DNA of 51,604 nucleotides from a virus, in IMG/VR virus record IMGVR_UViG_3300036861_000596, positions 1 to 51,604 of that record. One strand, 5' to 3'. Shown piece after piece: positions 64 through 23,698 of this stretch (the first letter of the stretch is position 1; every line of letters starts with the position of its first letter). The notes under the pieces were generated by a model, which did no database searches, had not been told where the DNA came from, and was given only the letters and a program-made list of their open reading frames with translations. The position numbers and the translations under genes are program-made.

Positions 64-127
64 TTAGAGTACCCATTCCAGGAGGACAAAGCCTGCGGCC
101 CCAGCTCCACCCGTGGTCGAGCCCGCC
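1..127. repeat. Terminal direct repeat, left copy
   Basis: These bases are identical to the last 127 bases of the window (51478-51604). An exact repeat of this length at both ends of a contig is what an assembler leaves when it closes a circle, so the molecule is circular or circularly permuted. The repeat lies inside tail genes, not in a packaging-site-like region, so a true short terminal repeat is less likely. Confidence 0.95.
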
Positions 128-837
128 GCGCCACCCCCGCCCCCACCTCCGGCCCCGCTGTTCGCGGCCGCGGGCGCTGAGCCGCCCGCGCCGCCATTGC
201 CGCCGGTCCCGCCTTGGCCCCAGAGGGTCGTCGCCCCGCCCCCGCCCCCGGCTTGCGAGGCGGTCGTGGTCCCCGCGCTGCCAGCTACAAAGGCGCTGCC
301 AGTGGTCTGCCCGCCATTCCCGCCGTTTGCAGCCGTGGTGTTCCCGGCCCCTCCACCGCCGGCCCCCGGAATCCCGAACGGGGTCGAGACGTTTGCGGCG
401 CCTCCCGCAGTGCCAGGGTTTCCTGCCGCTCCACCAGCCCCCGCCGTCCCGACCCCGGCCGACCCAGCTCCGCCGACGCCCGCATTCGTCCCGCCGTTGC
501 CACCTTTCGCGGTGATGGTGGTCGTCCCCGCCACACTCGAATCACCCCCGGCGCCGCCGCTCGCGGCCGACGCGGCGGTGCCCCCAGCCCCGACCGTGAC
601 CGTGAGCACCTGGCCCGACGTGGTCGAGAGAGGAACCCGCGTGCCGAGCCCGCCCGCCCCGCCCCCGCCCCCGCCGAGCGCCGCCGCCGCGTTGCTGCCG
701 CCGCCGCCTCCGCCGCCGCCCTGGATTGTGCAGTGGAGAAGCGACACGTTACCGGGCACGACAAACGTGTTCGCCCCCGTCGTCGTAAAGCGTTGCGACT
801 GGGACTTGGATGAGCCGGGGTGGTAGAGCACAGACAT
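64..837 (-). CDS. Glycine-rich tail fibre/adhesin-like protein
   Basis: 257 residues. A short N-terminal beta-type region (about 1-38) is followed by long Gly/Ala/Ser-rich runs such as GGGGGGGG and GGAGG up to about residue 245, then a hydrophobic closing segment FVLLEWVL. Such low-complexity glycine sheets are known from receptor-binding adhesins of tailed phages, where polyglycine helices pack together and the loops carry specificity. The gene sits at the end of a run of fibre-like genes and directly upstream of small tail proteins in the same transcription direction. Role in host recognition is inferred. A proline-rich frame on the opposite strand (113-826) is the mirror of the glycine codons and is not a gene. 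Confidence 0.75.
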   Translation of the reverse strand: MSVLYHPGSSKSQSQRFTTTGANTFVVPGNVSLLHCTIQGGGGGGGGSNAAAALGGGGGGAGGLGTRVPLSTTSGQVLTVTVGAGGTAASAASGGAGGDSSVAGTTTITAKGGNGGTNAGVGGAGSAGVGTAGAGGAAGNPGTAGGAANVSTPFGIPGAGGGGAGNTTAANGGNGGQTTGSAFVAGSAGTTTASQAGGGGGATTLWGQGGTGGNGGAGGSAPAAANSGAGGGGGGGAAGSTTGGAGAAGFVLLEWVL

Positions 838-2597: not shown

Positions 2598-2729
2598 CTA
2601 CCGTGTCACCTGCCATCCGTGCTGGCGGCACCAGTGGACGTGGAGGGTTTTGGTCAAACGGAGGCTAAACCCCCAACTCGGGGCCCACCGCAGGTAGGAC
2701 TCACCGGCTCCGATGTAGTTACGGGGCAT
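2598..2729 (-). CDS. Small protein, unknown function
   Basis: 43 residues, MPRNYIGAG... ending HGWQVTR, from an ATG that overlaps the end of the glycosyltransferase gene (2719). It fills the gap between the last sugar-cassette gene and the first fibre gene with overlap on one side and no spacing on the other, the pattern of a coupled real gene. It has a basic, aromatic composition with HVHW and no recognised motif. Confidence 0.5.
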   Translation of the reverse strand: MPRNYIGAGESYLRWAPSWGFSLRLTKTLHVHWCRQHGWQVTR

Positions 2730-3402
2730 AGTCGGGGAGAGGGGCGCGCCAGAAGTCGGGCGGCTCGTTGGGGTCACCACCATGTTTCCAGTGGTAGCGC
2801 AGCCGATTCGCCATGAAGAGCAGGTCCTTTCGAGCGGCCCACGGGCAGGCCGTTACGACCTGGCGGGAGCCCGTGCGCGTCACGTTGGCCGCGGGGACAC
2901 TCACGAGCTGCACGCCGCTGAGGAGGGCCCGCTTGAAGAAGTCGGTGTCCTCGTACCAGGCCGGCACGAACGTCTCGTCGAAGGGGCCGACTTGCTCGGC
3001 CACCGACCGCGAGACGGCCCAGCACCACCCGCTGATCCCGAGCCCGTAGGGCTTGCTCCCGCCGGTGAGGGGGAAGGCGATGTGGCCCATGAGGGCAGCG
3101 TCGTAGAGGGGGCGGTCCCAGCCCGGCTCGACATGCGTCGTGGTGGTGACGAAGGCGAACACGTCGCCGTGGGCGAGCCGGCGCCCCTCGTTCCAAGCGG
3201 GAGCGATGCCACGGTTGGTGGGCCAGAGCGTCGCGGCGCTCGTCCGCAGGGGTCGGCGGTGAGGCGAGCCGTTATCGACGACGATGACTTCGAGGGGGAC
3301 CTCGGCGGTGTCCCAGATACGCTCGATATTGGCGTGGGCCATCTGTGCCAGTTCGGGAGTAACGTTCCAAACCGGGACAATCACGCTCAGCATCTTCGGC
3401 AC
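2719..3402 (-). CDS. GT-A fold (family 2-like) glycosyltransferase, metal motif altered
   Basis: 227 residues from GTG at 3402 (an in-frame ATG lies at 3393). The N-terminus MLSVIVPVWN and the VIVVDNGSPH strand (Asp43) are the nucleotide-sugar-binding start of family 2 glycosyltransferases. NRGIAPAWNEGRRLAHGD matches the next conserved block, and WYEDTDFFKR (about 145-154) matches the catalytic ED region. Where these enzymes normally carry the DxD metal-binding motif this protein reads FVTTTTHVEPGW (TTTT at 86-89). It may therefore be metal-independent, altered in activity or inactive. Last gene of the sugar cassette. Confidence 0.8.
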   Translation of the reverse strand: MPKMLSVIVPVWNVTPELAQMAHANIERIWDTAEVPLEVIVVDNGSPHRRPLRTSAATLWPTNRGIAPAWNEGRRLAHGDVFAFVTTTTHVEPGWDRPLYDAALMGHIAFPLTGGSKPYGLGISGWCWAVSRSVAEQVGPFDETFVPAWYEDTDFFKRALLSGVQLVSVPAANVTRTGSRQVVTACPWAARKDLLFMANRLRYHWKHGGDPNEPPDFWRAPLPDYAP

Positions 3403-3506
3403 TCCGGTCGGGGGCAGACCGTCCCCACCCAGTGGAGATGGTCGTCGGCCACCCCGGGCGGGCGGGCAGCGACGATTCCGCGCGGCTCGACGACTTGCGA
3501 CTTCAT
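3387..3506 (-). CDS. Possible 39-residue coupled small protein
   Basis: An ATG at 3506 overlaps the stop of the mutase-like gene (ATGA), and the frame continues 39 codons to a TGA inside the start of the next glycosyltransferase. It ends HWVGTVCPRPECRRC, with three cysteines. It accounts for the otherwise empty 100 bp between two tightly packed genes. It could equally be a leader segment only, and no homologue is known to me. Confidence 0.35.
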   Translation of the reverse strand: MKSQVVEPRGIVAARPPGVADDHLHWVGTVCPRPECRRC

Positions 3507-4420
3507 AGAAACAACTCCGCCCACACGTGCATCGCCCGCTTCAACGTGCGCCAATAGCCGCTATCCGGCAGGACGAGCTTGTCGGCCAGCTCGTAGTAGC
3601 ACCGGGCCACGCTATCCTGCGTCAGGCGCACCTCGTCCACCCGCTCCCACAGCCACTCATTCGCCGCCTTCGGCTCGCGCTCCTTGATGAGGTTGATGTG
3701 GGGGTCGCTGGCCCGCTCGTGGCGTACCCACGGGCTCCCGCTGCGAACGGCGAAGCCGAGGTGATCGCACACCTTCTTCGACATGACCCCGGCCCATATA
3801 TCGCCGAAGCGGTCGTAGCCCCACGGCACGTCGTAGAGGAGGTGCGTGCCCATGAGCATGAAGTACATGGCCGGCACCATCTCCCGGCGGAAGGCGAGGT
3901 TCATGCCGCTCATCGGGTAGTAGCTTCCCGCCCCGATCCATCCCCTGATTCCTTCGTACTGGTAGGGCGGCGGGCTGGCGAGTTGCGTCTCAGCGTCTAG
4001 ATCGGGGATATGCGACCAGAGCCCGTGGTTGATGTGGGTTGGTCGGAGGCCCCGGTTCTCTGGCATGCCACGCGGCTTGATCGTGACGGTGGGCTTCCAA
4101 CGAGGCTCATCCGTCTCTAACCACTCGACGTGGTGCTTGAGCCAACGCCCGTCGGGATAGCAATCGTCGTCAATGGTGAGGATGTAGTCGGCCCCATCCC
4201 GCCACGCACGCCAGAACCCGTAGCTGCGAATACAGTCCGTCTGGCGGGGGATGATCCAGGCAGAATTCTTACCCAGCGCGTGGGTGATTTCTAACCACGT
4301 CTCCGGCTCGTCCAGCACCTCGTACACGCGCACGTCGAGGCGGTCGAACTCGGCCTTCCACTCTCGTCGCCACCGTTCGAGGCTGTCGGGGCGGTTGCTG
4401 GGACAGACGACGGCGATCAT
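3503..4420 (-). CDS. RGP/GT75 family protein, UDP-arabinopyranose mutase-like
   Basis: 305 residues from ATG 4420 (ATGA overlap with the upstream methyltransferase). Several blocks match the plant reversibly glycosylated polypeptide / UDP-arabinopyranose mutase family as I remember it: TDCIRSYGFWRA, the metal motif TIDDDCYPD, NHGLWSHIPDLDAETQL, YPMSGMNLAFRREM, PAMYFMLMG and DIWAGVMSKKVCDHLGFAV, followed by HERASDPHINLIKE. Characterised family members interconvert UDP-arabinopyranose and UDP-arabinofuranose. Here it would supply an activated sugar for the neighbouring transferases, or act as a transferase itself; substrate is not shown by sequence. Family-level call is strong, reaction is inferred. 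Confidence 0.8.
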   Translation of the reverse strand: MIAVVCPSNRPDSLERWRREWKAEFDRLDVRVYEVLDEPETWLEITHALGKNSAWIIPRQTDCIRSYGFWRAWRDGADYILTIDDDCYPDGRWLKHHVEWLETDEPRWKPTVTIKPRGMPENRGLRPTHINHGLWSHIPDLDAETQLASPPPYQYEGIRGWIGAGSYYPMSGMNLAFRREMVPAMYFMLMGTHLLYDVPWGYDRFGDIWAGVMSKKVCDHLGFAVRSGSPWVRHERASDPHINLIKEREPKAANEWLWERVDEVRLTQDSVARCYYELADKLVLPDSGYWRTLKRAMHVWAELFL

Positions 4421-5016
4421 CTCGTCGGCACCTTCACCGCCTCGACCCGCACCGTCGGGATCTGGGCGGCATGGTAGTCCTTCCCCGGCCCCGTCACGTA
4501 TCGCAAGAACCCCCCAAGCATGACGAGCAGGCCGAGGGAGTCGGCGGTATAGCCGTAGTAGTGCCCATCGATGAGGGGGTTGTCGTAGCCCCCGTAGATC
4601 CCCCCCACCATGATCCCGACGTTCCCCGCGAGCCACTCCTGGCACATGCGCCGCATGTCGGGGGTCTCGGCGATGAATAGGCCGTTGGGGCGCAGGACCC
4701 GGTGGGCCTCTCGGGCGATGTGGAGCGCGGCGACGGGCGGGACGTGTTCGAGCGCCTCGAACATCGTCACCTTGTCGTAGGTGGCATCCCCGAGGGGCCA
4801 GGGCTCGCGGAAGTCGAAGGCGAGGTCCTGGGCAAAGACCGGCTGCACATCGACGTTGGTGGCGCCCGGGATCGGGTTGACCCCCGAGCCAAGGTTGAGG
4901 TGGTCGGGACCGTCGTAGCCGATCCACTTGAGGCGGGGATCCATGCTCGTATCGACGGGCCAGCGGGCCCGCATCGCTTGACCGGCGGCGTAGTAGAGCG
5001 GCGGGTACTCGCTCAC
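4417..5016 (-). CDS. SAM-dependent class I methyltransferase
   Basis: 199 residues. HLNLGSGVNPIPGATNVDV (residues about 39-57) is the glycine-rich SAM-binding motif I with its acidic strand 2 partner. FREPWPLGDATYDKVTMFEALEHV gives motif IV, and AHRVLRPNGLFIAETPD is the typical post-motif strand. This is the pattern of type-11/23 methyltransferases that act on sugars or small molecules. It overlaps both neighbours by four bases in the sugar cassette, so methylation of a glycan or nucleotide sugar is the natural inference. Confidence 0.8.
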   Translation of the reverse strand: MSEYPPLYYAAGQAMRARWPVDTSMDPRLKWIGYDGPDHLNLGSGVNPIPGATNVDVQPVFAQDLAFDFREPWPLGDATYDKVTMFEALEHVPPVAALHIAREAHRVLRPNGLFIAETPDMRRMCQEWLAGNVGIMVGGIYGGYDNPLIDGHYYGYTADSLGLLVMLGGFLRYVTGPGKDYHAAQIPTVRVEAVKVPTR

Positions 5017-5954
5017 AGAAGCGCCCCCATCGCCGCCTTCAGGGCGGCCCGTTCCCCCTCCAGCGGCAGTACCTCCTGCACCCCCCGGCTCATCACCCGC
5101 CCCTCCTCAGCGATCTCGACGACGGGACGGCGGAGGAGCCGCTGCGCCTGGGCGGTGAAGTCGGTCGTGTCGCTCGACAGCACCACGTCCATCCCGCACC
5201 GCCGCATGAGCATGTCGCTGCTGTGCCCGCCGTAGCCGAGCACGTAGCACCCGCAGGCCCCCGCCTCGAACGGGGGGAGTGTCCCGCCCTCGGGATAGCC
5301 GAAGGCGAAGAACACCAGGGACTCTTGCAGAATACGGCTCGTCTCCGCCTCGGACTGCCCGTCGATGGCGACCACGTCCCACCCGTCGAGAGCCCCGCTA
5401 AACCGCAACCACCCGAACACCTGCTGCGCCTCGTCGGGGTGCTTCCGGGGCATCCACGCGATCTGCCGACGCTTGGCCGTGCCGAGCGGGAAGGTGAGGG
5501 GGTCGATCCCGTGGGGGACGACGTGGACGGGGTGGTCGGGGAATACCGCCCGCAGCGCATCCCGACAATAGTCGGTCAGCACCATCGTCCCCACGACGCG
5601 CGGGTCCCGGTAGGGGGTGGCGCAGTCAGGCGGGGGTGGGACTGAGTAGCCCCGGAATGTGTAGTGCGAGTTCTGGTTGAAGACGATGGTCCGCACGCCG
5701 GGCGGGGCAATCTCGGCCGTGTTCGGGCCCATGATCTCGTTGGTGACCAGCACGTCCCCAGCGCGGAGCGCGACGCCGTCCAGGTACGCGACGGGGTAGT
5801 CGTGGCTGATCCAGGGGTACCGAAACCCGGGCGTGACGTGGAGCAGCCGAGCCGACCAGCCCATCTCGTCGAGCAGGCGGACGTGGCGGACGTGGGTCTT
5901 GGTGCCCCCGGAGGGCGGGCGGTGGTCCGCCGCACTGGGCAGGTAGTAGATCAT
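5013..5954 (-). CDS. GT-B fold (family 4-like) glycosyltransferase
   Basis: 313 residues. The start MIYYLPSAADHRPPSGGTKTHVRHVRLLDEMGW matches the N-terminal Rossmann half, with the glycine loop and a helix typical of family 4. VLTDYCRDAL and HVVPHGIDP mark the inter-domain region. AIDGQSEAETSRILQESLVFFAFGYPEGGTLPPFEAGACGC corresponds to the nucleotide-sugar-binding half, with the conserved EG...PPFEA (EX7E-like) motif. Donor and acceptor are unknown. Overlaps both neighbours by ATGA. Confidence 0.8.
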   Translation of the reverse strand: MIYYLPSAADHRPPSGGTKTHVRHVRLLDEMGWSARLLHVTPGFRYPWISHDYPVAYLDGVALRAGDVLVTNEIMGPNTAEIAPPGVRTIVFNQNSHYTFRGYSVPPPPDCATPYRDPRVVGTMVLTDYCRDALRAVFPDHPVHVVPHGIDPLTFPLGTAKRRQIAWMPRKHPDEAQQVFGWLRFSGALDGWDVVAIDGQSEAETSRILQESLVFFAFGYPEGGTLPPFEAGACGCYVLGYGGHSSDMLMRRCGMDVVLSSDTTDFTAQAQRLLRRPVVEIAEEGRVMSRGVQEVLPLEGERAALKAAMGALL

Positions 5955-7048
5955 CGCGCAGTCTCCACGCGGCCCTCATAACCGGCCGCCCTCACCTTCT
6001 CCGTTATCTCGTCCTCGAAGTTCCACGGCAACACCAACAGCTTCTCAACCGGCTCGTCGAGGAGGGTCTGGAGCGGGACGACCGGCACGTTGTAGGGGGT
6101 GATGAGACCCTGCTTGGCCGGGGTCTCATCCACGACGTATCGTAGGTAGGACGGCCCCAGTCCCACGACGGTGCAGAACACCGTCCCCTTCGCCGCCGCA
6201 CCGAACGCGCCCCAGGTATGGCGCTCGGTGTACGTGTCCCACCACCGTCGAATGCGCTCGTCGAGACGGGTGTGGAAGCGCTCGTACGGGGCCGGGGTGA
6301 GCAGTTGCGTCTCGGACGGGTCGTCCTCGGCGCTTGCCCGGGCCTTCATCGCCACGACCCGCACCGACCCCCCGTGGATCGGCAAGTACTCCAGGTTGAT
6401 GATGTGAAGGTCGTGCGCCGCGAGCAGGCGGCGCAGGCTCGTGATCGTCCAGTACGAGAGGTGCTCGTGGTAGATGGTGTCGAAGGCGATCCCCGTCAAC
6501 AGGTCGAGCAGGTACGGCACCTCGACCACGAACACCCCGTCCGGGGCGAGCAGGCGCGCCACCTCCCCGACGAAGGCATGCACCTCATCGACGTGGCCGA
6601 GCACGTTGAGGGCGGTGATGGCGTGGAAGGGGCCGACGAGGCCGAAGGCGGGGAAGGTGCCGCGCCACACGTCCTCATGCTGGGGGCTGGGGTCAATCCC
6701 GACCACGTCCCACCCGGCCGCCTCGGCGGCGACGAGGAGCGTGCCGTCGTTGGCCCCGATATCGAGCCACTTCCCCGGGTGTAGATACCCCCCAACCACC
6801 TCCACGAGGCGCTTGCAGTGGGCCCGGAAGGTGGTGCTCACCCCGCTCCGGTACGGATAGCCCGTGTAGAGCGTGGTAGGCGAGAGCACCGTCGTGAGCT
6901 GGCTCAGCCCACAGGCAGGGCAGCGGGCCACGACGAGGGGATAGGTATCGGGGTAGGGCGCGCTGGGCTTGCGGAGGGCGTTGGCGAGGGGTTGCTTGCC
7001 GAGGTCGAGCCACTCGATCGTCGGGGTCGCGCAGACCCGACACGTCAC
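5951..7048 (-). CDS. Zinc-binding sugar C-methyltransferase-like protein
   Basis: 365 residues from GTG 7048, which overlaps the stop of the upstream gene (GTGA). The frame stays open to 7228 but that would overlap the transferase gene. The N-terminal CRVC and later CPAC cysteine pairs with LANALRKP form the zinc-binding domain of the NovU/TylC3-type sugar C-methyltransferase family. LDIGANDGTLL and VVGIDPS form the SAM site. NVLGHVDEVHAFVGEVARLLAPDGVFVVEVPYLLDLL and IYHEHLSYWT follow, with a C-terminal second Rossmann-like domain (AFGAAAKG). Known members methylate carbon 3 of NDP-deoxysugars; the substrate here is unknown. Confidence 0.85.
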   Translation of the reverse strand: MTCRVCATPTIEWLDLGKQPLANALRKPSAPYPDTYPLVVARCPACGLSQLTTVLSPTTLYTGYPYRSGVSTTFRAHCKRLVEVVGGYLHPGKWLDIGANDGTLLVAAEAAGWDVVGIDPSPQHEDVWRGTFPAFGLVGPFHAITALNVLGHVDEVHAFVGEVARLLAPDGVFVVEVPYLLDLLTGIAFDTIYHEHLSYWTITSLRRLLAAHDLHIINLEYLPIHGGSVRVVAMKARASAEDDPSETQLLTPAPYERFHTRLDERIRRWWDTYTERHTWGAFGAAAKGTVFCTVVGLGPSYLRYVVDETPAKQGLITPYNVPVVPLQTLLDEPVEKLLVLPWNFEDEITEKVRAAGYEGRVETAR

Positions 7049-8040
7049 GACGAGACCCCCAACAGGGCCGTCGTGGTCTCCTGCTGGCCCGGTCCCCTGA
7101 GCCAGTCGAGATACCCCAAGAACGTCCCGTCGCTGTGGGCCTGCGGGAGGATGCGCCGCCAGTACACAACCCCCGCCGCCGTCAACGCTGGCACCCAGCT
7201 CTCCCCGACGGGGGGACGCTGGAAGCACGGACTATCGCCCGGGAGCACGTAGTTGCGGTTGAGCTGGGTATCGAAGTGGCTCAATAGAAGGCCGGTATCG
7301 GCGTAGATGACGCCCCCGGCCTCGTCCCGCATCCGCATCATGAAGAAGCGGTCATGCCCCCAGCGGTTGCGGGTCTTCCCGCCCACGTCGTCGGGGGTGC
7401 TATCCTTGAGCACATCGTCAAACCACGGCCCCTTCAGCTTCCGCACATAGGCCATGTTGACGAGCATGCAGCCCGCCCCGGCGCTATGGATGGGGATGAG
7501 CGCCCCGAGCGGCCAGTCCCAGAAGGCCCCGGCCTCCGCGTCGAGGTAGAGAAGGGGCTCAACGGGCTCGATCTTCGTCGAGTACACCCCCGTGATGACC
7601 GCCGCCTCGGGGTGTTTCCGCATCGCCCCCCACAGCCGATAGAGCGTCGTGTCGGGGAACAGCACGTCATCGTCGAGAAAGCAGACCGTCTCGATGTTCT
7701 CGGCGAGGGCCGTCTCCAGGATGGCGTTGCGGGCGGCGGCCGGGAGCTTGCCCTTCTGCACCGTGTACGACATGGCGGTGTTGAGCGGGTGGAGAAGCTG
7801 GAGCAGGCTGATGAAGAACTCGACGGGGGGGAAGCCCCGCGTCGGGATGCCGATGGTGATGGCGGGCGCGCCCGGGCTCACCTTGATCGGCTCCTTGGCC
7901 CGGTACATGACCGGGTCGGGACCGCGCTCCGTATCGAGACGCCCCAACAACCGGGCGAACAACTCCTCCCCGGTGATCTCGTCGGGGAGGGGGCCCAGGA
8001 ACTCCGTCAGCAGCTTCGTCTGTCTCAGATCCAAGTTCAC
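7045..8040 (-). CDS. GT-A fold glycosyltransferase
   Basis: 331 residues. ITIGIPTRGFPPVEF is the start of the GT-A domain, LPAAARNAILETALAENIETVCFLDDDVLFPDTTLYRL holds the DxD motif (LDDDV), and SAGAGCMLVNMAYVRKL plus WGHDRFFMMRMRD complete the acceptor side. This is the layout of phage- and bacterium-borne glycosyltransferases with intact metal site, unlike the one at 2719-3402. First gene of the sugar cassette, directly downstream of capsid-region genes and in the late unit, so it is likely made when virions assemble. Confidence 0.8.
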   Translation of the reverse strand: MNLDLRQTKLLTEFLGPLPDEITGEELFARLLGRLDTERGPDPVMYRAKEPIKVSPGAPAITIGIPTRGFPPVEFFISLLQLLHPLNTAMSYTVQKGKLPAAARNAILETALAENIETVCFLDDDVLFPDTTLYRLWGAMRKHPEAAVITGVYSTKIEPVEPLLYLDAEAGAFWDWPLGALIPIHSAGAGCMLVNMAYVRKLKGPWFDDVLKDSTPDDVGGKTRNRWGHDRFFMMRMRDEAGGVIYADTGLLLSHFDTQLNRNYVLPGDSPCFQRPPVGESWVPALTAAGVVYWRRILPQAHSDGTFLGYLDWLRGPGQQETTTALLGVSS

Positions 8041-8063
8041 TCAACATCTCCTATCGCGGCGGG

Positions 8064-8450
8064 CTATTCAGGTACTGGCGGCCACTTCGGCAGGTCGGTC
8101 GTCTCCGTGAGGGGCGGGCCCACGGGCCGATACCCCCTCGTGTCGGGCGGGGTTGTCTGCGTCTTTGAGCGCATGCGCTGGAGCCACTGGCGTTCCATCT
8201 CCGCCCGCTGGCGGGCTTGCTGAGCCTGCTGAAAGCGCTCGAACGGCACCACAACCCCACCCCGCCCCGGCAGCGCATTCCCCATGAAGCGGGCGAGGGC
8301 GCTCAGGATATCGATGAAACTCATCGGGTGGGCGGGCTGGAGGCCCTGCGCAGCCCCTTCCGCCGTCGGGTCCGGCGTGAAGAGACCAGCAGGGCTCCCG
8401 CTCGCCTGGAGCGCCCGCACGAGGTCCGGCTCAAGCTCGTACGGGTTCAT
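8064..8450 (-). CDS. Hypothetical protein in capsid region
   Basis: 128 residues. Residues about 70-92 (FQQAQQARQRAEMERQ...) form a short charged helix and the last 30 residues are Pro-rich and probably unstructured. No family recognised. Located between the beta-rich structural protein at 8454 and the sugar cassette, with three bases of spacing on one side. A virion-associated role is possible from position only. Confidence 0.6.
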   Translation of the reverse strand: MNPYELEPDLVRALQASGSPAGLFTPDPTAEGAAQGLQPAHPMSFIDILSALARFMGNALPGRGGVVVPFERFQQAQQARQRAEMERQWLQRMRSKTQTTPPDTRGYRPVGPPLTETTDLPKWPPVPE

Positions 8451-8453
8451 CGG

Positions 8454-8969
8454 CTACTGTTCGAGGTAGATGTAGGTGGTGAGGTCGTTGTTGGCAGGGG
8501 CGAGGTCGGCGGAGGTGATGATGACCGCGCCGATGCGATCCCCGGCGACGACGGTGTCAACGTCCTTGTTCTGGACGGTGACCCAGCTCCGAACGCTCGT
8601 CGCGGCGTTGACGTTCGTGAACACGGTCGAGCCGTTCTTGGTCACGCGGACGCTGACAGTCCCGGCGGTGATGTGCGTGGAGAGGCAACTGGCCACGCCG
8701 ATGATGGAGCCGCCCCGCAGGGTCGGGACGGTATCCTCCGCCCCGGAGATGGCGGCGAGGTCGTGGACGGTGCTCGCCATCGACGTAGTGAGGTTGAGGT
8801 TGACGAAGGGCCCTACCGCCATCAACAGGCCCCCGACGTTCTGCGTGACAACGTCGCCGTTATTCAACAGGCCGGTCCCGACCGTCTGGGAGTCTCCCGA
8901 AGTGGCAAACTCCAGGAGGGTGCTCGACCCAACGAGCTTGAGGGGTGCGGACATGGTCTTACGAGCCAT
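8454..8969 (-). CDS. Beta-rich virion structural protein
   Basis: 171 residues. Alternating strands rich in Thr/Ser/Val/Asn, with TVSVRVTKNGSTVFTNVN and AGDRIGAVIITSADLAPANNDLTTYIYLEQ, characteristic of phage decoration or appendage beta-sandwich proteins. AAG-GACA lies before the ATG and the gene is preceded by a large hairpin that separates it from the major capsid gene. It could be a head fibre or tail appendage; I cannot tell which. Confidence 0.65.
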   Translation of the reverse strand: MARKTMSAPLKLVGSSTLLEFATSGDSQTVGTGLLNNGDVVTQNVGGLLMAVGPFVNLNLTTSMASTVHDLAAISGAEDTVPTLRGGSIIGVASCLSTHITAGTVSVRVTKNGSTVFTNVNAATSVRSWVTVQNKDVDTVVAGDRIGAVIITSADLAPANNDLTTYIYLEQ

Positions 8970-8989
8970 CGATTGTCCTTATGGGAGGG

Positions 8990-9063
8990 CCCCCTCCCTC
9001 CACACACGGGCTGACACGCCGGCACCGGCGTCTCTCCGTGCCTAAAGGGGTGGAGGGAGGGGG
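8990..9063 (-). promoter_or_regulatory. Large nested hairpin downstream of the capsid gene
   Basis: A perfect 14-bp stem is formed by 8990-9003 and 9050-9063. Its 46-nt loop carries a second perfect 7-bp stem (9016-9022 with 9025-9031). It stands in the 137-bp gap between the major capsid gene and the next late gene. There is no T tract after it in the transcription direction, so it is better viewed as an attenuator, processing site or 3' stabiliser of capsid mRNA than as a classical terminator. Confidence 0.6.
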
Positions 9064-9105
9064 GTTGCTTGAATAGCGCGGAAGGCTATTCAGGTGAGCT
9101 TAGAA

Positions 9106-10026
9106 CTAGGCTCCTGGCGAGCCCCACACCTGCCGCCAATCGACGCAGCCCCTCGACCAGCGGGCCCGCACAACCGACAGCATCGTGGTGTTCTTGATAT
9201 CAAAGTCGCTCGACGAGGTGAAGGGCAGGCGGTCGTAGGCCCGCAGTCCCATGTCGTTCACGTCCGAGGGCTTCGCCACGAACCAATACGCGTCCGTGTC
9301 GGTGATCTCGGACCAGAAGACCGGCGTGAGCCCCTCATTCTCCTCGTTGAGGATGTTCTTCTCGTTATCGGTCGTGTAGGGCTTGTCCGGGGACTTGAAC
9401 ACCTCCCCGTACACCCACCGCATCGCGGGGTTGGCCACGAAGTAGGCCGGCTGGGCCCCGATGCGGATGCCCTGGTCGTCGGTCAGGTTGGCGAAGTGGT
9501 TGAACACGGTCTGCGCCGCGCTGATCCCCAGGTCGGCCGCCCCCAGGTTGGAGATGGTGGAGCCGTTGTAGAGGGTGTGCGTGGCACAGATATCCGACCC
9601 GTCGGCCGCATCCTCGGTCCCGAACGAGTTGTTGAAGACGTTGCTGAAGTTGACTTCCTTGGTGAAGCGGTGCGACTTCGCAGCCGCCTTGGCGAGGCTG
9701 GCGACCAGCTCATCCTGGTCGTCGTCCTCCATCTCCTCCGTCACCTGCCACGCCACGCCGAACTTGGTGTGCGTGAACTTCTTGTCGAAGAGCTGCGCGA
9801 CCGAGGCGAGCGGGTAGTCCTCACCCTCCCCAACGACGGAGAAGGTCGGGAACCCGGTGAACCCGGTCACGTTCTCGAACTGACGCTTGCTCTTCTTCCA
9901 GCCGAAGAGCTTCTTCCAGGCGCTCTTCTTCTCGTCCAGGTCGCGCGACTGGATATAGACGGCGTCGATGAACGCCAGCCGACTCGTGAAAATGTCAGGG
10001 TAGTTGTTGCGAACCATCATGGGCAT
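9106..10026 (-). CDS. Major capsid protein
   Basis: 306 residues. The N-terminal MVRNNYPDIFTSRLAFID and the segment SKRQFENVTGFTGFPTFSVVGEGEDYPLAS are followed by FTHTKFGVAWQVTEEMEDDDQ. This matches the E-loop and long helix of HK97-fold capsids of the Mu F/T-like class; ANPAMRWVYGEVFKS and the late SSSDFDIKNTTMLSVVRARW match the P and A domains. Size fits a capsid protein made without a cleaved delta domain because a separate scaffold-like gene lies upstream. Order portal-scaffold-decoration-capsid supports it. Confidence 0.88.
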   Translation of the reverse strand: MPMMVRNNYPDIFTSRLAFIDAVYIQSRDLDEKKSAWKKLFGWKKSKRQFENVTGFTGFPTFSVVGEGEDYPLASVAQLFDKKFTHTKFGVAWQVTEEMEDDDQDELVASLAKAAAKSHRFTKEVNFSNVFNNSFGTEDAADGSDICATHTLYNGSTISNLGAADLGISAAQTVFNHFANLTDDQGIRIGAQPAYFVANPAMRWVYGEVFKSPDKPYTTDNEKNILNEENEGLTPVFWSEITDTDAYWFVAKPSDVNDMGLRAYDRLPFTSSSDFDIKNTTMLSVVRARWSRGCVDWRQVWGSPGA

Positions 10027-10039
10027 CTACATATCCCCC

Positions 10040-10525
10040 TTACACACCGACCCGGCTCTTGCCGGCCAGCCAGTGCTCGCTGATCTTGACGATGAGGGGG
10101 ATGTTCTTCCCGAAGGCCACGTCCGGGTCCTTCCCGATGATGCGGAGCTGGGCGGTCGCGGTCGTGGCGGTGGAGATATCCAGCTCGTGCTGAGACTTCA
10201 GGAACGTTGCATTCCCGGTGGTGGCGAGAATATCGGCGTTGGTGCCGATGGTGGTCTGGGCAGGGGTCCCGGCGGCCCCGTCGTCCTGGATGTAGTACTG
10301 CTGGTCAGGATGGTCGGAGACGAGGACGGTGTTGTAGGTCGCGCTCTTATATGAGAGCGCCATCCCGACGAGGAAGGTGTTGCCGGCGGTGGCGATGGCG
10401 GCTTTGCCATCGACCCGCATGAGAACGGCATCACCCGGATAGATAGCGGCGCTGGTACCGGCGTTGTACTCCTTCATGTGAAGGATGCGCCCCGCCGGCC
10501 AGAACCCGCGAGGGTTGTCAGCCAT
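10040..10525 (-). CDS. Head decoration protein
   Basis: 161 residues. The sequence is beta-rich with the GDAVLMR...GNTFLVGMALS pattern and IPLIVKISEHWLAGK end seen in small head proteins coded directly before the capsid gene in many phages. It starts two bases downstream of the neighbouring stop and is followed 13 bases later by the capsid gene. A decoration or capsid-stabilising role is inferred from position and fold-like composition. Confidence 0.65.
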   Translation of the reverse strand: MADNPRGFWPAGRILHMKEYNAGTSAAIYPGDAVLMRVDGKAAIATAGNTFLVGMALSYKSATYNTVLVSDHPDQQYYIQDDGAAGTPAQTTIGTNADILATTGNATFLKSQHELDISTATTATAQLRIIGKDPDVAFGKNIPLIVKISEHWLAGKSRVGV

Positions 10526-10527
10526 AG

Positions 10528-11046
10528 TTAGGTTGCCTTTTCGATCTCCGCTGCGCTCAGGTCATCAGCGCCCAGGTACACCTTCGGCGGGGTAACCCCA
10601 GCAGAGCGGGAGAGACGAGCGACTTCTTCTTTGAAGCGCTCAGGGTTGCGGGAAGTTTTCGTTTGGTCGATGGTGCGGTCGCGCGTGCGGCGGCGGCGCT
10701 CGCGGGCCAGGCGGCCCGGTATCACGCCGAGGAAGGCGTCCTCGTTCCAGCGGATCAGGTTGTCGACCGAGATGCGAATCCCCGGTGCGCACCGTCCCCG
10801 CTCGATGAGGGCCCTGTCGGCAGCATCCGGCGAGTAGGCTTCGTATCCACGCCACCCGCCGCCACGATCAATGTACGGCTTCGAGAGCCACCGCCATTCC
10901 TTGTCCCCGCTCTTGAACTTGGCGAGGATAGATTTGGGGGGGCTCGGGATGCCGTCTCGATTCCACAACTCCTCTACGTCGATGTACTCACCCGCTTCCA
11001 CCGTCTCGGCAACCACGTCTACTTTCGGCTTCTTCTGAAAGGCCAT
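10528..11046 (-). CDS. Putative head assembly protein, unknown family
   Basis: 172 residues. A charged, partly basic protein with RLARERRRRTRDRTIDQ (about 112-128) and a C-terminal acidic helix DDLSAAEIEKAT. It contains SGDKEWRWLSKPYIDRGG, which suggests a compact N-terminal domain. No family recognised. It sits between the scaffold-like and decoration genes in the head module, so a head function is likely but unproven. Confidence 0.6.
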   Translation of the reverse strand: MAFQKKPKVDVVAETVEAGEYIDVEELWNRDGIPSPPKSILAKFKSGDKEWRWLSKPYIDRGGGWRGYEAYSPDAADRALIERGRCAPGIRISVDNLIRWNEDAFLGVIPGRLARERRRRTRDRTIDQTKTSRNPERFKEEVARLSRSAGVTPPKVYLGADDLSAAEIEKAT

Positions 11047-11050
11047 CTCG

Positions 11051-11860
11051 CTAACTCACCACGATGTTGCGACCCGCCCGCTTTGCAGCGAGGGTCTTGG
11101 CAAAGATTTTGGGGTCCACACCGCCCGCTTCAGCCATGTCGCGCTCCCGCTGGGTCAGCTTCACCTCGTCCCCCTCATCAGCGACGGGGCGACGGGCGCC
11201 ACGCCCGACGTTCTGCGACTCCACCTCGATCGTCTTGTCCACGTTCGAGCGCCGGGCCTTCGGGGCGAGCCCGAGACGGCCAGCGGCCCGCTCTGTCGCG
11301 GTGTAGTGGGCGTTGGGCAGGGCCCGCTCCCAGTCCGTCATCTCCCGGTGGTAGATCTGCATGCCGACCTTGTGCAGCTCACTCGACGTGTCGTAGGCTT
11401 CCGGCCACGCCTCGCGCAGGGCGGACGAGGCCCGCTCGTGCTCCTGGTCGTTGCGGTAGCGGGCGTAGCCCTGTTGGGACGCCTCCTCGATGAGCTGGCG
11501 GCGCTCGTCGGCGGCGACCGCGGTGCGCTTGGCCTCCAGGCGGCGGTACGCCTCGTAGGGGTCGATGCGGGCGAGTTCGCGGAGAGCGGCCTCGTCGTCA
11601 TCGGCCTGGCCGGTCGGCTTCGTTTGCCCCGCCCGCTGATACGCCTCGATAACGGTCTTGGCGACGCCGACGGCCTGCTGGTACTTGGGGAACTCGGTCT
11701 CCAACTGCTGCCAGCGGGCGGCCTTGCCCTTGTACGCCTCGGGCTCATCCTCGATGCCGTACTTCTCCTTGACGTAGCGGCGGAGGGTGGTCTCGTCGGG
11801 CTCGGCGGGGGGCGGTGGGGTGGGCGGGGTGGCGGGTGTGATCTCGATCGGCTCAGCCAT
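11051..11860 (-). CDS. Capsid scaffolding protein
   Basis: 269 residues from ATG 11860; the frame extends to 11890 but the internal start (MAEPIEI) lies just beyond the stop of the upstream gene. The protein is a Pro-rich N-terminus, then almost entirely charged helix (residues about 35-200), then the conserved-looking C-terminal LTQRERDMAEAGGVDPKIFAKTLAAKRAG, the style of scaffold proteins that bind the capsid shell with a basic C-terminus. Position between portal and capsid genes agrees. Confidence 0.75.
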   Translation of the reverse strand: MAEPIEITPATPPTPPPPAEPDETTLRRYVKEKYGIEDEPEAYKGKAARWQQLETEFPKYQQAVGVAKTVIEAYQRAGQTKPTGQADDDEAALRELARIDPYEAYRRLEAKRTAVAADERRQLIEEASQQGYARYRNDQEHERASSALREAWPEAYDTSSELHKVGMQIYHREMTDWERALPNAHYTATERAAGRLGLAPKARRSNVDKTIEVESQNVGRGARRPVADEGDEVKLTQRERDMAEAGGVDPKIFAKTLAAKRAGRNIVVS

Positions 11861-12087: not shown

Positions 12088-14325
12088 CTAGAAGGTGAGC
12101 CCGCCGGGCTGCGGGGGGCGCGGGACCTGTGTGGGCCCGCCGCCGACCCCCGCCGGGAGCCCCGGTTGGGGCTGGGGCTGGGCCGCCATCATCATCTGCT
12201 GCATCTGCTGGGCGAGCATCTCCTGCATCGCGGCTTGCTGGCGGGCTTGGAGCTGGTGCTGCGCGACGAGCCGCACTTCTGGAGCGAGCCCGACCGCGTC
12301 CGGCGACTGGAGGTACCGCCCGAGCTTATCGACGATGACCTGGTGGTTCTCCCCCGGCATCGGCAGCACGTCCTCCCCAGCGAGCACGCGCCCCAACACC
12401 TCGTCAGGGTTGCGGGCGGCCGGCTGGGGCGGGGCCTGGATGATACGCTCGATGTTGGGCACGTCGAACACCTTCAACAACTGGCGGTACCACTCGGCGA
12501 TCCCCTGCGGGGTCATCACGCCCATTTGCATCAGGAATCCCTGGACGTTTGGACCGAGCGGCCCCTGTGCGAAGAAGCTAAAGGTGTTGCGCTCGATTTC
12601 GCGGTCGGTCGAGAGGGAGTTACCGGTGAACTTGAGGTCGAGCAACTTCGACAGGTCGTCACGGGTCACCACCACGTCCGGCGCGCCGAGGGCCCCACGG
12701 ATACGCACCTCGCGCCCGGGCGGCATGTACTGGCGGTAGAGGGCGAGGATCTGCGTGAGGAGGCGCTTGAAGTCCTCCTGGATGCGCCGAACCTGGAGGT
12801 CGTTCCCGATGGCGCTCTGGGAGGCAAGCTGCTGCACGCCCGTCGCGGTCCGCGAGGCACCCTGCGTGTCCCCGGGCCGCCCCATCGTGATATCGTTCAC
12901 CTTCGTGCGCTTCTCGATCAGATCCCAAATGACGCGTTCCTCATCGCGCCGCCACGCCGTATAGTCGGCGGGCTGGGCCATCTTCACCGCGTTCACATCA
13001 TCGACGGGGATCATGACGCCCGGCTCAAGGGGCACACGCTCGGCCGGCAACCCAGCCTGGGGCTGATACCACCCATACGGGGTATTGCCGATGGTGCCCG
13101 CATCGATCCGCTGGTTGTGGATCGTGTTGATCTCGGCTTGCAACCCGTCGAGGATGAAGGGGTACCCGACGGACCAGAAGGCATCGGCAACGGGGAACAT
13201 GCCGAAGGTGACGAAGGGGCGCATCCCGTGCCGGTACACCTCTTCCAGCCGGTTAACCCGCAGCACGATATCGGGCTTCTCCTTGACGACGGTGCCGATG
13301 ATCTCCTCGTCGTACCCATCATCGTTGACATCGTACTTGCGGTAGCTGTCGAGCAGCTCGATCCGGGAGGGGGTACCGACGCGCTGGGTCTCGGCCGCGC
13401 CGGTGATGGCCTCCCGCACTTCCTTCGCCCCGGAGGTGTTGGTGTCGGGGGCCTTGGAGGGGTCCTCCAGCAGCTCCAGGTCCTCCAACTCGGACTTGTC
13501 GAGCTTGCGGAACGTCCCCTTCCGGCACTCCCGCTTGATCTGGTCTAGCGTGAGCCAGTAGCGGTGGGTGACGTGGTCGGCGCGCTGGAGGTCGGCGGGC
13601 GCGTCCGACTCGACGCAGAAGTCCTCGGGGTTCACGTAGGTGATGAGGGGCGCGTCCCGGACCACCTCGTTGCGCTCGGTGAACACGTAGACCTTCGTCG
13701 GGGTCTTCTCCACCTCGACGACGCGCTTGCCCTTCTCGGCCACCATCACGACGTACTCTTGGGCCTGCTCGGGCGAGCCCCCCGTCCGCTGGACCGCCTC
13801 GACGAGGGTCGTCTCGGCCTGGTAGATGGCCTGGAGCGCCTCTTGGAGGGGCGTGTCGGGGGGGAACTCGTGGCGGTCCCGGACGTGGCGAATCTGAAGA
13901 TCCCACGTCACCTTCACCGGCTGGGTCCCCACCACGCACGCGCTGAGCAAGACCCGGTCCATGATGGGGAAGAGGGCACAGTCCTCCCGCACGGCCCAGT
14001 CGAGGAACTGCTCCTGCTTCTTGGCGTATTCCTCGTCGGAGGGGTCCTGGGGCTGGAAGGCGGCGATAGGCTCGGGCTTGAAGAGGGCCGCCATGTAGCG
14101 CGGGTGGGCCGTATCGATGACCGTTGCGGTCACCGGCACGAACAGATTCGACGCCCCCTCCCACGGCTCGTCCTTGGCGACGGGGCGGTTCTGGTACATC
14201 GCCAGCCACTTCGGCAGATCGTCGAGCCACTGCTGCCGGTCGTCGTTATCGTCCTCCCAGTCCTCGACGATGAGTTGGCCGAGTTCGGTCAGCTCCTCCG
14301 CGGGCAACTCGACGTGCTTGGGCAC
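12088..14325 (-). CDS. Portal protein, P22-like size class
   Basis: 745 residues from GTG 14325, sharing one base with the terminase stop (TAGTG). DAPSHGS-equivalent segments TATVIDTAHPRYMAALF and PFVTFGMFPVADAFWSVGYPFILDGLQ with INTIHNQRIDAGTIGNTP resemble the clip and wing regions of long portals from short-tailed phages. The C-terminus is a Gln/Met-rich helix (EMLAQQMQQMMMAAQ) like a portal barrel, then a Pro/Gly tail. As the dodecameric vertex it receives the packaging motor and later the adaptor. The long open frame on the opposite strand is a composition shadow. Confidence 0.88.
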   Translation of the reverse strand: MPKHVELPAEELTELGQLIVEDWEDDNDDRQQWLDDLPKWLAMYQNRPVAKDEPWEGASNLFVPVTATVIDTAHPRYMAALFKPEPIAAFQPQDPSDEEYAKKQEQFLDWAVREDCALFPIMDRVLLSACVVGTQPVKVTWDLQIRHVRDRHEFPPDTPLQEALQAIYQAETTLVEAVQRTGGSPEQAQEYVVMVAEKGKRVVEVEKTPTKVYVFTERNEVVRDAPLITYVNPEDFCVESDAPADLQRADHVTHRYWLTLDQIKRECRKGTFRKLDKSELEDLELLEDPSKAPDTNTSGAKEVREAITGAAETQRVGTPSRIELLDSYRKYDVNDDGYDEEIIGTVVKEKPDIVLRVNRLEEVYRHGMRPFVTFGMFPVADAFWSVGYPFILDGLQAEINTIHNQRIDAGTIGNTPYGWYQPQAGLPAERVPLEPGVMIPVDDVNAVKMAQPADYTAWRRDEERVIWDLIEKRTKVNDITMGRPGDTQGASRTATGVQQLASQSAIGNDLQVRRIQEDFKRLLTQILALYRQYMPPGREVRIRGALGAPDVVVTRDDLSKLLDLKFTGNSLSTDREIERNTFSFFAQGPLGPNVQGFLMQMGVMTPQGIAEWYRQLLKVFDVPNIERIIQAPPQPAARNPDEVLGRVLAGEDVLPMPGENHQVIVDKLGRYLQSPDAVGLAPEVRLVAQHQLQARQQAAMQEMLAQQMQQMMMAAQPQPQPGLPAGVGGGPTQVPRPPQPGGLTF

Positions 14326-15725
14326 TAGCGGACCCGCCGGAAGGCGTAGTAGCGGCCGGCGCGGGGGCTCTTCACCGTGTGGGGGTCTCCTGCGAGGTCG
14401 TAGAGGTGGATGATGATGTAGCGGAGGGCGTCGAAGAGGGGGCTGTAGTCGGGGTCCTGGACGGGCTCGTCCTTATCCGGGGCGTAGACGTAGCGCCCGT
14501 CGAAGCCGGCGATCAGGCGCCGCGTCGAGTCGTCGGGGGAGATGAGGAGGCCCGGCTCGCCGTCGTCCCGCATGTCGAGCAGGTTGCGGATGATGTTGAA
14601 GCCGCGCTCGATCGGGGCGGGCTTGTAGCGGACGGGGAGGCCGTGGGCCCGGAAAATCTGCGCGTCGGTCTCCTTCGCGCTCGATACGCGCCGGTTGGCG
14701 TCATGCCCGCCGAAGCACTCGATTTCCCCGCCCGGGAACCACTCGTCGGTACGGCGCTTGAGCCCAACGGCGAGCTTGTAGGTGTCCAGCTCCCGCGGGG
14801 CCCACGTCTTGAGGATGACGAGGCGGTTGTCGGGGTCGATCTGGGCCCACACGACGCCCGGCGCCCGAAACCCCCAATCCACCCCGACGTAGAGCGGGCG
14901 GTTCTTCTGCCAGCCGAGGGGGGCGCGGGCGACGTGGAGGGTGGGCCGGAACGCGGGGAAGATCGGGCGCTCCTGATCACTCTCAGCCCATTCCCCGTCG
15001 AGGTACTTCTGTATCCAGATCGGGTCGTAGCGGGACCGCAGGTCCTCGATATAGCCAGGCGGGAGGTGCGCCTTGTTCTCGGTGCTGTTCGTCCGGTAGA
15101 TGGTGTAGTGCTCGCGCTGGGCCGGGATGCGGGCCTTCTCCTCGACGAACCACTTGTAGATCCAGTGGCGGCGGCTCGTCGGGTTGTTGGCGAGCAGGCC
15201 CACCCGCGGGTAGCCCAACTGGCGGCACCGGCCGATGAGCATGCTTACCGCCGGCTCGGTCACCTGGTCGGCCTCATCGACGCCGAAGCTGGCGATGTCG
15301 AGGGACTTGTACTTGGTCTCCGCGCCCTCTAGCGACCGAAACTTGATAACCGACCCATTCGGCCACCGATACTCCATCTCCCCGGAGTTCCACACCCCGA
15401 CGCTGAGGGTCGTGCCGGCTGGGGCCTGCGACCGCAGCGCCTCGTCAAGGTCGGCGACGAGGGTGTGGAAGGTGACGAGGGTGGTGTCACGCAGCTCGGT
15501 ATAGTTGAACCGCCCCAGCAGGGTCTTGATACCGGGATAGGCGAGGCTGAGCCCGATCATGGCCCGGCAGAGGTACCAGCTCTTCCCCGACCCGAGCGAG
15601 CCCGTGTAGTCGATCATGCGGACGAAGGGGTCGGCGGGCTGGGCGAGGGCGAGGGTGTCGAGGCACTTCTGCTGGGTTGGGAGGGGGGTCCAGAGCTTGC
15701 CGATATCGAGGGTGATGCGATCCAC
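14325..15725 (-). CDS. terL: Terminase large subunit
   Basis: 466 residues from GTG 15725. ATPase half: Walker A GSLGSGKS at 42-49 and Walker B-like FGVDEAD at 147-153 with the catalytic Glu151, then coupling motif LANNP (177-181). Nuclease half: YLDGEW (241-246) and VGVDWGF with Asp283, the first metal-binding acid of the RNase H-like nuclease. Length matches the family. It packages DNA into the prohead through the portal coded immediately downstream. Confidence 0.95.
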   Translation of the reverse strand: MDRITLDIGKLWTPLPTQQKCLDTLALAQPADPFVRMIDYTGSLGSGKSWYLCRAMIGLSLAYPGIKTLLGRFNYTELRDTTLVTFHTLVADLDEALRSQAPAGTTLSVGVWNSGEMEYRWPNGSVIKFRSLEGAETKYKSLDIASFGVDEADQVTEPAVSMLIGRCRQLGYPRVGLLANNPTSRRHWIYKWFVEEKARIPAQREHYTIYRTNSTENKAHLPPGYIEDLRSRYDPIWIQKYLDGEWAESDQERPIFPAFRPTLHVARAPLGWQKNRPLYVGVDWGFRAPGVVWAQIDPDNRLVILKTWAPRELDTYKLAVGLKRRTDEWFPGGEIECFGGHDANRRVSSAKETDAQIFRAHGLPVRYKPAPIERGFNIIRNLLDMRDDGEPGLLISPDDSTRRLIAGFDGRYVYAPDKDEPVQDPDYSPLFDALRYIIIHLYDLAGDPHTVKSPRAGRYYAFRRVR

Positions 15726-17035: not shown

Positions 17036-17112
17036 TGGCTGCCGAGGCTGGCCTCGAACCAGCGACCCCCTCGTTAACAGCGAGGTGCTCTACCGGGCTG
17101 AGCTACTCGGCA
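17036..17112 (-). tRNA. tRNA-Asn (GTT)
   Basis: 77 nt on the minus strand with encoded CCA. Acceptor TGCCGAG pairs perfectly with CTCGGCA, D stem GCTC/GAGC, anticodon stem CCTCG/CGAGG with loop CTGTTAA (anticodon GTT), five-base variable loop GGGTC, T stem GCTGG/CCAGC with TTCGAGG loop, discriminator G. All stems pair without mismatch, so it looks functional. It lies just upstream of the small terminase gene in the same direction and would be at the 5' end of the late transcript. Confidence 0.96.
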
Positions 17113-19814: not shown

Positions 19815-20588
19815 ATGAGTCCACTTACCGACTACCAGTACCGGCGATTCGTCGCCCGGTTCAACGAGTACCAGGCGGGCCACCCGTCGCCACTACTGGT
19901 CGAGCAGCTCCGGGAGTGGCTCGCCACTCTCCCGGTGAGCGCTCAGGCACATGCCCGGGCCGCGCTTAAGCGGGCCCTCGGGCGCCTCGTCGAGTGGGAC
20001 GACGTGGGCGTCGCTCGCTATCGTCGGAATCGCGCCACCCTCCAGGCCAGCATCTTGAGCACCCGTGAGCAGGACACTCTCCTCGCCAGTCTCCAGACGA
20101 GCCGGGAGCGGGCGGCCGCACATTGCCTGTTCACGCTACGCCGGGTGGAGGTGGCGCGGATGGCGTGGTCGGATATCGATTGGGCTGAGCGGGTCGCCTA
20201 CATCCCCCGGGGCAAGCAAGACAAGCCGCGGTGGACCCTGTTGTCGGCGGGGGCCGTCGAAGCGCTCGCCATGCTCTACGCCGAGGAGGCGCGCCCCACA
20301 TCGGGGCCGGTGTTCCGGTCGTTGCGGGGCGGCCACCTGCGGCCGAACAGCCTGGGGACGTGGTTCGACGGGCTGGTCCGGCGGGCGGGGCTCAAGCGCC
20401 CCGGCCGTAACTGCCACGCCCTCCGCCGGACGATGGCGACGAGCTACCTCCGGGCCAACCCCGGCGATCTAGACGGCTTGCGGGAGGTGATGGGGCACGA
20501 ATCCATCGCCACGACGGTTCTGTACAACTACCCCCAGCCGGCCGATCTAGCCCCGCGGCTCGCCCGCGCCCTCTCGCACTGCCGATAA
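19815..20588 (+). CDS. int: Tyrosine recombinase/integrase
   Basis: 257 residues. An N-terminal helical core-binding domain (about 1-80) is followed by the catalytic domain. Conserved residues visible: Arg109/110 in FTLRRVEVARMAWSDID, Lys134 in the beta hairpin RGKQDK, His201-x-x-Arg204 in HALRRTMATSYL, His228 in MGHESIATT, and the nucleophile Tyr at 237 or 239 in LYNYPQP. Shorter than lambda-type integrases because it lacks an arm-binding domain. It implies site-specific integration; no attP core could be identified by eye. Coded behind the ribbon-helix-helix gene. Confidence 0.9.
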   Translation: MSPLTDYQYRRFVARFNEYQAGHPSPLLVEQLREWLATLPVSAQAHARAALKRALGRLVEWDDVGVARYRRNRATLQASILSTREQDTLLASLQTSRERAAAHCLFTLRRVEVARMAWSDIDWAERVAYIPRGKQDKPRWTLLSAGAVEALAMLYAEEARPTSGPVFRSLRGGHLRPNSLGTWFDGLVRRAGLKRPGRNCHALRRTMATSYLRANPGDLDGLREVMGHESIATTVLYNYPQPADLAPRLARALSHCR

Positions 20589-23130: not shown

Positions 23131-23143
23131 CCGTTTGCATGAC
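23131..23143 (+). promoter_or_regulatory. Operator half-site CCGTTTGCATGAC
   Basis: Identical over 15 bases (23130-23144) to one arm of the palindrome at 24833-24859. It lies after a possible -10 box (TACTATAA, about 23121-23128) and before the sigma-like gene, so a bound protein would control that gene. Confidence 0.6.
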
Positions 23144-23191
23144 ACCCCCGCCCCGACGGGGGCTCACCCAGGAGGGCTGGATGAGTACGAC

Positions 23192-23698
23192 ATGGACAGT
23201 GCTGAACTGGAAAAGTGCTACGAGACCAATCATATCCGATGGATACGAGTCGCGGTCGAGTGGGGAGCGGGTCGCCAGAGCGCCGAGGACATGGTCCACG
23301 ACGTAATGGTGTGGCTCCTCGAAGGGGTGGACGGGCCTTCCTCAGGGGAGGCGCTAGAGGATGCCGTCGAGCGGCTGATCCGACGGCGCGTCTCGGAGGG
23401 GCGGCGGGAGCAGGAGGAGCAGGCGACCCTGCCACGCACCCCCACGCTCGACCAGCTCGACGAGCGCGGGATCGTGCATGGGGCGGTGGCGGCGCTCTCT
23501 CCGGCCCAGCAGACCGTGGTATGGCGGTGTTTGACACAAGGGGCGACGGAACGGATGGTCGCGCAGGAACTCGGCGTGCATCCGGGGACCGTCCAGGTCC
23601 ATCTCCGGCGGGCGAGGCGGCATCTCCAGACCCAGCTCGAAGGACTGGGCGCGGGGCGTAAGATCCGGCACGAGCGTCGCCCACGACGAGACCGTTAA
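23192..23698 (+). CDS. Sigma-70-like (ECF-type) transcription factor
   Basis: 168 residues from ATG 23192; the frame is open from 23135 (TTG), and GGAGGG at 23171 makes the exact start uncertain. ECF-like layout: GRQSAEDMVHDVMVWLLEG resembles region 2 with the DVMVWL helix, and LSPAQQTVVWRCLTQGATERMVAQELGVHPGTVQVHLRRARRHL is a region 4 helix-turn-helix. A phage sigma-like factor could redirect host polymerase to the late genes, which show no obvious host-type promoter. Region 3 is absent as in ECF factors. Confidence 0.8.
   Translation: MDSAELEKCYETNHIRWIRVAVEWGAGRQSAEDMVHDVMVWLLEGVDGPSSGEALEDAVERLIRRRVSEGRREQEEQATLPRTPTLDQLDERGIVHGAVAALSPAQQTVVWRCLTQGATERMVAQELGVHPGTVQVHLRRARRHLQTQLEGLGAGRKIRHERRPRRDR

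Follow-up and report, generated by a model that had tools for sequence, protein, structure and literature searches.

What would a tailed phage do with a gene related to the UDP-arabinopyranose mutases of plants, and on which sugar would its product act? The window analysed here, the full 51,604 bp of an IMG/VR virus contig, carries such a gene on its minus strand at 3503-4420. That the gene is phage-encoded, as claimed in the original prediction, is borne out by terminase, portal, capsid-region, tail-fibre and PolA genes, which identify the contig as a tailed phage; no cultured phage was matched in a megablast search with its first 25 kb. The open reading frame runs from ATG to TGA without internal stops and encodes 305 amino acids; its start codon overlaps the stop of the gene before it (ATGA at 4420-4417). 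A longer mechanical ORF starting at GTG 4927 was rejected as the mutase gene because homology starts at the ATG at 4420. Its counterpart in a second viral contig (L001) has the same residue at 164 of 303 aligned positions, and codon differences are more frequent at the third position (151) than at the first or second (102 each). This identity, together with the excess of third-position differences, makes the coding reading sound.

Placement of the protein in the plant RGP/UAM family was confirmed by a wide margin. Its match to PF03214 (RGP) scored 102.5 bits (E 3.6e-29; best stretch, residues 127-302), more than four times the gathering cut-off of 23.8 bits, and fold and catalytic residues agree with this assignment; PHROGs and NCBIfam searches gave no family for the protein. 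The two sequence blocks named in the original prediction are present as TIDDDC (residues 82-87; 4160-4177, minus strand), a metal/nucleotide DDD motif in which Asp84-86 correspond to Asp109-111 of the bacterial enzyme MtdL, and GMNLAF (residues 172-177). They are accompanied by the blocks PRG-P, HGLW..PD.DA.TQL, Y.RFGDIWAG and VRH.RASDP, all near-invariant across 86 homologues. A sequence search of the PDB retrieved MtdL, a GT75 enzyme of the A201A pathway of Marinactinospora thermotolerans (E 7e-21; structures 7xpr, 7xps and 7yua), and rice UAM2 (OsUAM2, 8cid; E 5e-12). An AlphaFold2 model built on the 86 homologues (pLDDT 97.4, pTM 0.94) has the GT-A fold, including the core and C-terminal helices specific to the family. 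By VIA-align, six MtdL entries match it at Z 31.8-32.3, the best covering 281 of 305 residues, and OsUAM2 matches nearly the whole chain at Z 30.8; the next fold after the GT75 entries, the GT2 enzyme GlfT2, reaches only Z 14.2. Identification as a FAD-dependent UDP-galactopyranose mutase (GLF, with a Rossmann FAD-binding fold) was rejected, since both Pfam and fold indicate a GT-A protein of GT75. The designation of 3503-4420 as a phage GT75 NDP-pyranose mutase is thus well supported.

Some plant GT75 members are inactive despite having the same fold, which counts against assuming activity. The catalytic residues were examined in an alignment of 91 phage and bacterial sequences, with positions mapped to MtdL numbering (PMC9937993). 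By this alignment the phage residues Asp62, Arg65, Asp84-Asp86, Arg117, Asp140, Gly172, Met173, Arg204, Asp207, His234 and Arg236 correspond to MtdL Asp87, Arg90, Asp109-Asp111, Arg159, Asp195, Ser228, Gln229, Arg257, Asp260, His287 and Arg289. MtdL residues that are essential by mutation or metal binding (Asp87, Asp109, Asp111, Arg159, Asp195, Arg257, Asp260 and His287) are identical in the phage protein, and seven core residues are retained in 87 of the 91 sequences. Three are invariant in all 91: Arg117 (codon 4070-4072, minus strand), equivalent to the autoglycosylated catalytic Arg (MtdL Arg159, OsUAM1 Arg158), Asp207 (3800-3802, minus strand), equivalent to the proposed general base Asp260, and His234 (3719-3721, minus strand), equivalent to the Mn-binding His287. 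Arg123 lies near the position of the second Arg of the family (MtdL Arg166, OsUAM1 Arg165), in a gapped part of the alignment where homologues show no conservation. The sole mutase-essential residue to be lost is Gln229, which is Met173 in the phage protein and Met in 91 of 91 aligned sequences; MtdL Q229A is inactive (PMC9937993). In OsUAM2, listed as inactive in the same work, MtdL Asp111, Arg257 and His287 are replaced by Asn, Thr and Arg. Because the phage protein keeps the catalytic residues that OsUAM2 itself has lost, it looks, as far as sequence can tell, like an active member of GT75.

The residues of the sugar pocket bear on the name originally given to the protein, UDP-arabinopyranose mutase. 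GT75 also takes in GDP-sugar mutases from bacteria, MtdL and Hyg20 (GDP-L-Gal/GDP-L-Fuc; PMC9937993), and the sequence Thr61-Asp62 (Asp62 codon 4235-4237, minus strand) corresponds to Ser86-Asp87 in MtdL, as against Asp-Ser in active plant RGPs. The AtRGP2 S91D mutant yields no detectable mutase product, and MtdL D87S likewise abolishes mutase activity (PMC9937993). Since either exchange abolishes the mutase reaction, the residue found here distinguishes plant-type pockets from those of MtdL type; by sequence the phage pocket is MtdL-type at Asp62. The Thr-Asp-Cys motif occurs in 26 of 91 phage and bacterial sequences and so marks a group wider than this phage. The base site is mixed. Pro7, Gly172 and Met173 resemble the plant enzymes; Asn9, at the position of MtdL Ile15 (described as conserved for base stacking), matches neither them nor MtdL. 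The MtdL/Hyg20 base-recognition set of Thr13, Asn42 and Ser86 is not reproduced, as Pro7 and (by position) Pro39 differ, while Thr61 resembles Ser86. With such a set, the residues assign neither UDP nor GDP, nor dTDP. Neither an arabinose pathway gene nor a PF16363-type NDP-sugar dehydratase/epimerase, a type that would cover UDP-xylose synthase/epimerase, was found in the 51,604-nt contig, and the sugar donor would accordingly come from the host. The name UDP-arabinopyranose mutase is therefore not supported, and neither is the step from it to arabinofuranose.

The mutase is embedded in a set of minus-strand genes for glycan synthesis. It is preceded, in order of transcription, by a GT2 glycosyltransferase (7045-8040; Glycos_transf_2, 29.2 bits; 48% identical to the syntenic L001 gene), a sugar 3-C-methyltransferase of the TylC3/TcaB9 type (5951-7048; Methyltransf_13, 23 and 14), a GT4/GT-B-like glycosyltransferase with a weak match (5013-5954; Pfam E 0.008, below cut-off; PHROG E 0.026) and a SAM methyltransferase (4417-5016; Methyltransf_11/23, 29-30 bits). 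Start/stop overlaps of 4 bases chain these four genes and the mutase, and the cassette is translationally coupled; the start of the C-methyltransferase was set at GTG 7048 from its L001 homologue. Downstream lie an unproven 39-codon ORF (3387-3506), whose ATG overlaps the mutase stop as ATGA, and another GT2 glycosyltransferase (2719-3402; 32.6 bits; 51% identical to the L001 gene). None of the five coupled proteins has a clear membrane span. The closest solved relatives of the C-methyltransferase are TylC3 (D-mycarose 3-C-methyltransferase) and TcaB9, cellular antibiotic-sugar enzymes of branched deoxysugar synthesis (PDB 4rv9, E 3e-52; 3ndi, E 3e-43). Members of this family act on 4-keto deoxysugars, and the cassette enzyme, by its sequence, points to deoxysugars rather than arabinose. 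Beyond the cassette, near the contig end, a glycine-rich domain protein (64-837, minus strand; PF21722, 61.9 bits) is perhaps a tail or appendage protein.

On its other side the cassette follows the head genes, also on the minus strand: terminase large subunit (14325-15725; phrog_2, E 1.7e-30), portal protein (12088-14325; phrog_1216, E 3.6e-39) and the presumed major capsid protein (9106-10026), for which the only match, to a PHROG family of head maturation proteases, covers the C-terminal part of that family. In L001 the corresponding genes, 48-59% identical to those of the window, are arranged as portal, capsid, GT2, C-methyltransferase, GT2, mutase. Mutase (53% identity), portal (53%) and capsid (59%) have diverged to a similar extent, so the cassette seems to move together with the head module, and the comparison suggests that the two have not been parted. 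Elsewhere in the window, a tRNA-Asn (GTT; 17036-17112, minus strand) adjoins the switch between the two transcription directions. An early-looking region includes a Phage_integrase family protein (19815-20588, plus strand), which makes a temperate life style possible. The protein encoded at 23135-23698 (plus strand), in which a sigma-70 region 4 domain scores 39.5 bits, is perhaps a phage sigma-like regulator. A 246-aa ORF (28982-29722, plus strand), which begins ..WFSCGAASAVAS.., is reminiscent of PAPS-reductase-like proteins, though Pfam gave no match and its GC3 is unusually low.

Genes for this mutase are found in at least 44 viral sequences besides the window. A scan with a four-sequence alignment located at least 49 viral loci and at least 49 loci in bacterial genomes, both lower bounds because detection required either of two peptide patterns. 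The bacterial carriers include Patescibacteria, Chloroflexota, Planctomycetota and Acidobacteriota, and their homologues lie in polysaccharide loci that also contain Wzy_C and polysaccharide-export-type genes. The Pfam families seen most often among 149 neighbours of the viral copies include GT2 (14), Methyltransf_24 (8), NDP-sugar epimerase/dehydratase (7) and sulfotransferase (5), tallies that rest on crude gene calling and are pooled over proteins, not per locus. In the 8 kb or so surrounding 15 phage copies, portal, head and terminase families turned up repeatedly, with such genes near the mutase in several cases. The window and L001 are paired (100/99) in a tree of 93 rows, where the viral label requires 9 changes, as against 31 in shuffles; the branch of MtdL is very long, and its placement was left unused. 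A single viral origin was rejected, as viruses never formed one group in bootstrap trees, and the 9 label changes imply several transfers or losses. By this phylogeny, several phage lineages carry the mutase and are interleaved with bacteria. An SDR comes after the mutase in one phage clade (L002, L015, L031, L043 and L046); its closest family is dTDP-glucose 4,6-dehydratase, with a score below the model cut-off. The 595-kb phage LR756511.1 carries a PF03214 protein, with two sulfotransferase-like ORFs and one methyltransferase-like ORF flanking it (6456-11139 of that locus, L004), hinting at sulfated, furanose-containing glycans. A match in Synechococcus phage S-T4 (tblastn E 3e-4) was rejected as a PF03214 member, since Pfam finds no such domain. 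This protein (YP_009810868.1; L005:5830-6738), annotated as hypothetical or as a 'membrane protein family of ancient origin', lies in a sugar gene cluster and has the MtdL-like blocks DDDN, RGFP, DPDIDA, NSQNT and RMDDIWGG; it may be a divergent relative of GT75, encoded by a cyanophage that is in culture.

On balance we think it fairly probable that an active GT75 mutase feeds NDP-furanose to the glycosyltransferases of the cassette, leading to a virion glycan with a C-methylated deoxysugar. Following the mechanism proposed for MtdL, the enzyme would interconvert NDP-pyranose and NDP-furanose without flavin, in a Mn/Mg-dependent reaction. The DDD motif and His234 would hold metal and diphosphate, Arg117 would attack the anomeric carbon of the sugar, and Asp207 would serve as acid/base for ring opening and reclosure, after which NDP-furanose would be released. 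We infer that this product is destined for virion decoration. The neighbouring soluble glycosyltransferases, two of GT2 type and the weaker GT4-like candidate, could take up the furanosyl donor and build a glycan on a virion protein of capsid or tail, presumably during late infection, with the C-methyltransferase making a branched deoxysugar for it. That tailed phages decorate their virions with furanoses made by their own flavin-free GT75 enzymes, here acting on a 3-C-methyl-branched deoxysugar, a class of substrate not known for GT75, is a more specific proposal that we regard as speculative and unlikely.

A true UDP-L-arabinopyranose mutase supplying L-arabinofuranose to a phage glycan, as originally envisaged, would fit the shared Pfam family, the plant-like Pro7, Gly172 and Met173, and a fold in which OsUAM2 is nearly as near as MtdL. 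We think it quite unlikely, as Thr61-Asp62 replaces the plant Asp-Ser in a manner equivalent to the inactivating AtRGP2 exchange, the contig is without a PF16363-type SDR, and the C-methyltransferase of the cassette is of a family that acts on 4-keto deoxysugars. Somewhat less doubtful, though still unlikely, is alteration of the host envelope by a temperate phage, for seroconversion or superinfection exclusion. The integrase-family protein would allow such a life style and bacterial homologues do reside in polysaccharide loci, but the cassette lies within the head gene block, in a position conserved in L001, and its glycosyltransferases look soluble, unlike GtrA/GtrB systems. Phage glycan and altered host envelope had both been put forward, and of the two the phage glycan is the likelier.

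It is also conceivable that the protein is a glycosyltransferase without mutase activity, which autoglycosylates only or uses Arg117 as a primer, in the manner of some RGPs with UDP-Glc. AtRGP2 acts on UDP-Glc solely as a glycosyltransferase (PMC9937993) and the fold is GT-A; however, all mutase-essential residues except Gln229 are retained, Asp62 included, and the cassette already has glycosyltransferases of its own, so that we consider this improbable. Least credible is a sugar supply for phage DNA modification. Phages that add pentoses to DNA are known, as with the arabinosyl-hydroxymethylcytosine of RB69 (PMC6024577), but that paper makes no mention of a mutase, the contig holds no thymidylate-synthase-family (hydroxymethylase) gene, and the cassette lies among structural rather than DNA-metabolism genes.

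Among known relatives, the phage protein shares with MtdL the fold (Z 32), the DDD/His metal site and the counterparts of Arg159, Asp87, Asp195, Arg257 and Asp260. However, the two are only 26% identical over aligned residues, Pro, Asn, Pro, Thr, Gly and Met stand in place of Thr13, Ile15, Asn42, Ser86, Ser228 and Gln229 of MtdL, and MtdL resides in an antibiotic cluster, in contrast to the virion-gene context of the phage mutase. With the plant proteins (OsUAM1, AtRGP1-3 and the solved OsUAM2) it has in common PF03214, TIDDDC, RG.P, GMNLAF and the fold (Z 31), but it is shorter, and the sugar-pocket Ser91 and preceding Asp are Asp62 and Thr61. Phage RGPs are already known as automatic UniProt annotations. 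The best viral structure match, A0A6J5N5Z7 ('Reversibly glycosylated polypeptide (Fragment)', uncultured Caudovirales phage), is likewise phage-encoded but is a fragment with 26% identity to the window mutase; a literature search found no work on it. As of PMC9937993 the characterised bacterial GT75 enzymes were only MtdL and Hyg20, from actinobacteria, with plant members also characterised, and a literature search with few subscription journals in scope found no paper on viral GT75.

The several dozen phage copies, some of them near capsid genes, are small soluble candidates for new NDP-furanose specificities, and the context of the mutase is an invitation to experiment. Our results suggest that furanose chemistry may belong to phage virion glycosylation, and a glycan carried on the particle could influence adsorption or recognition.
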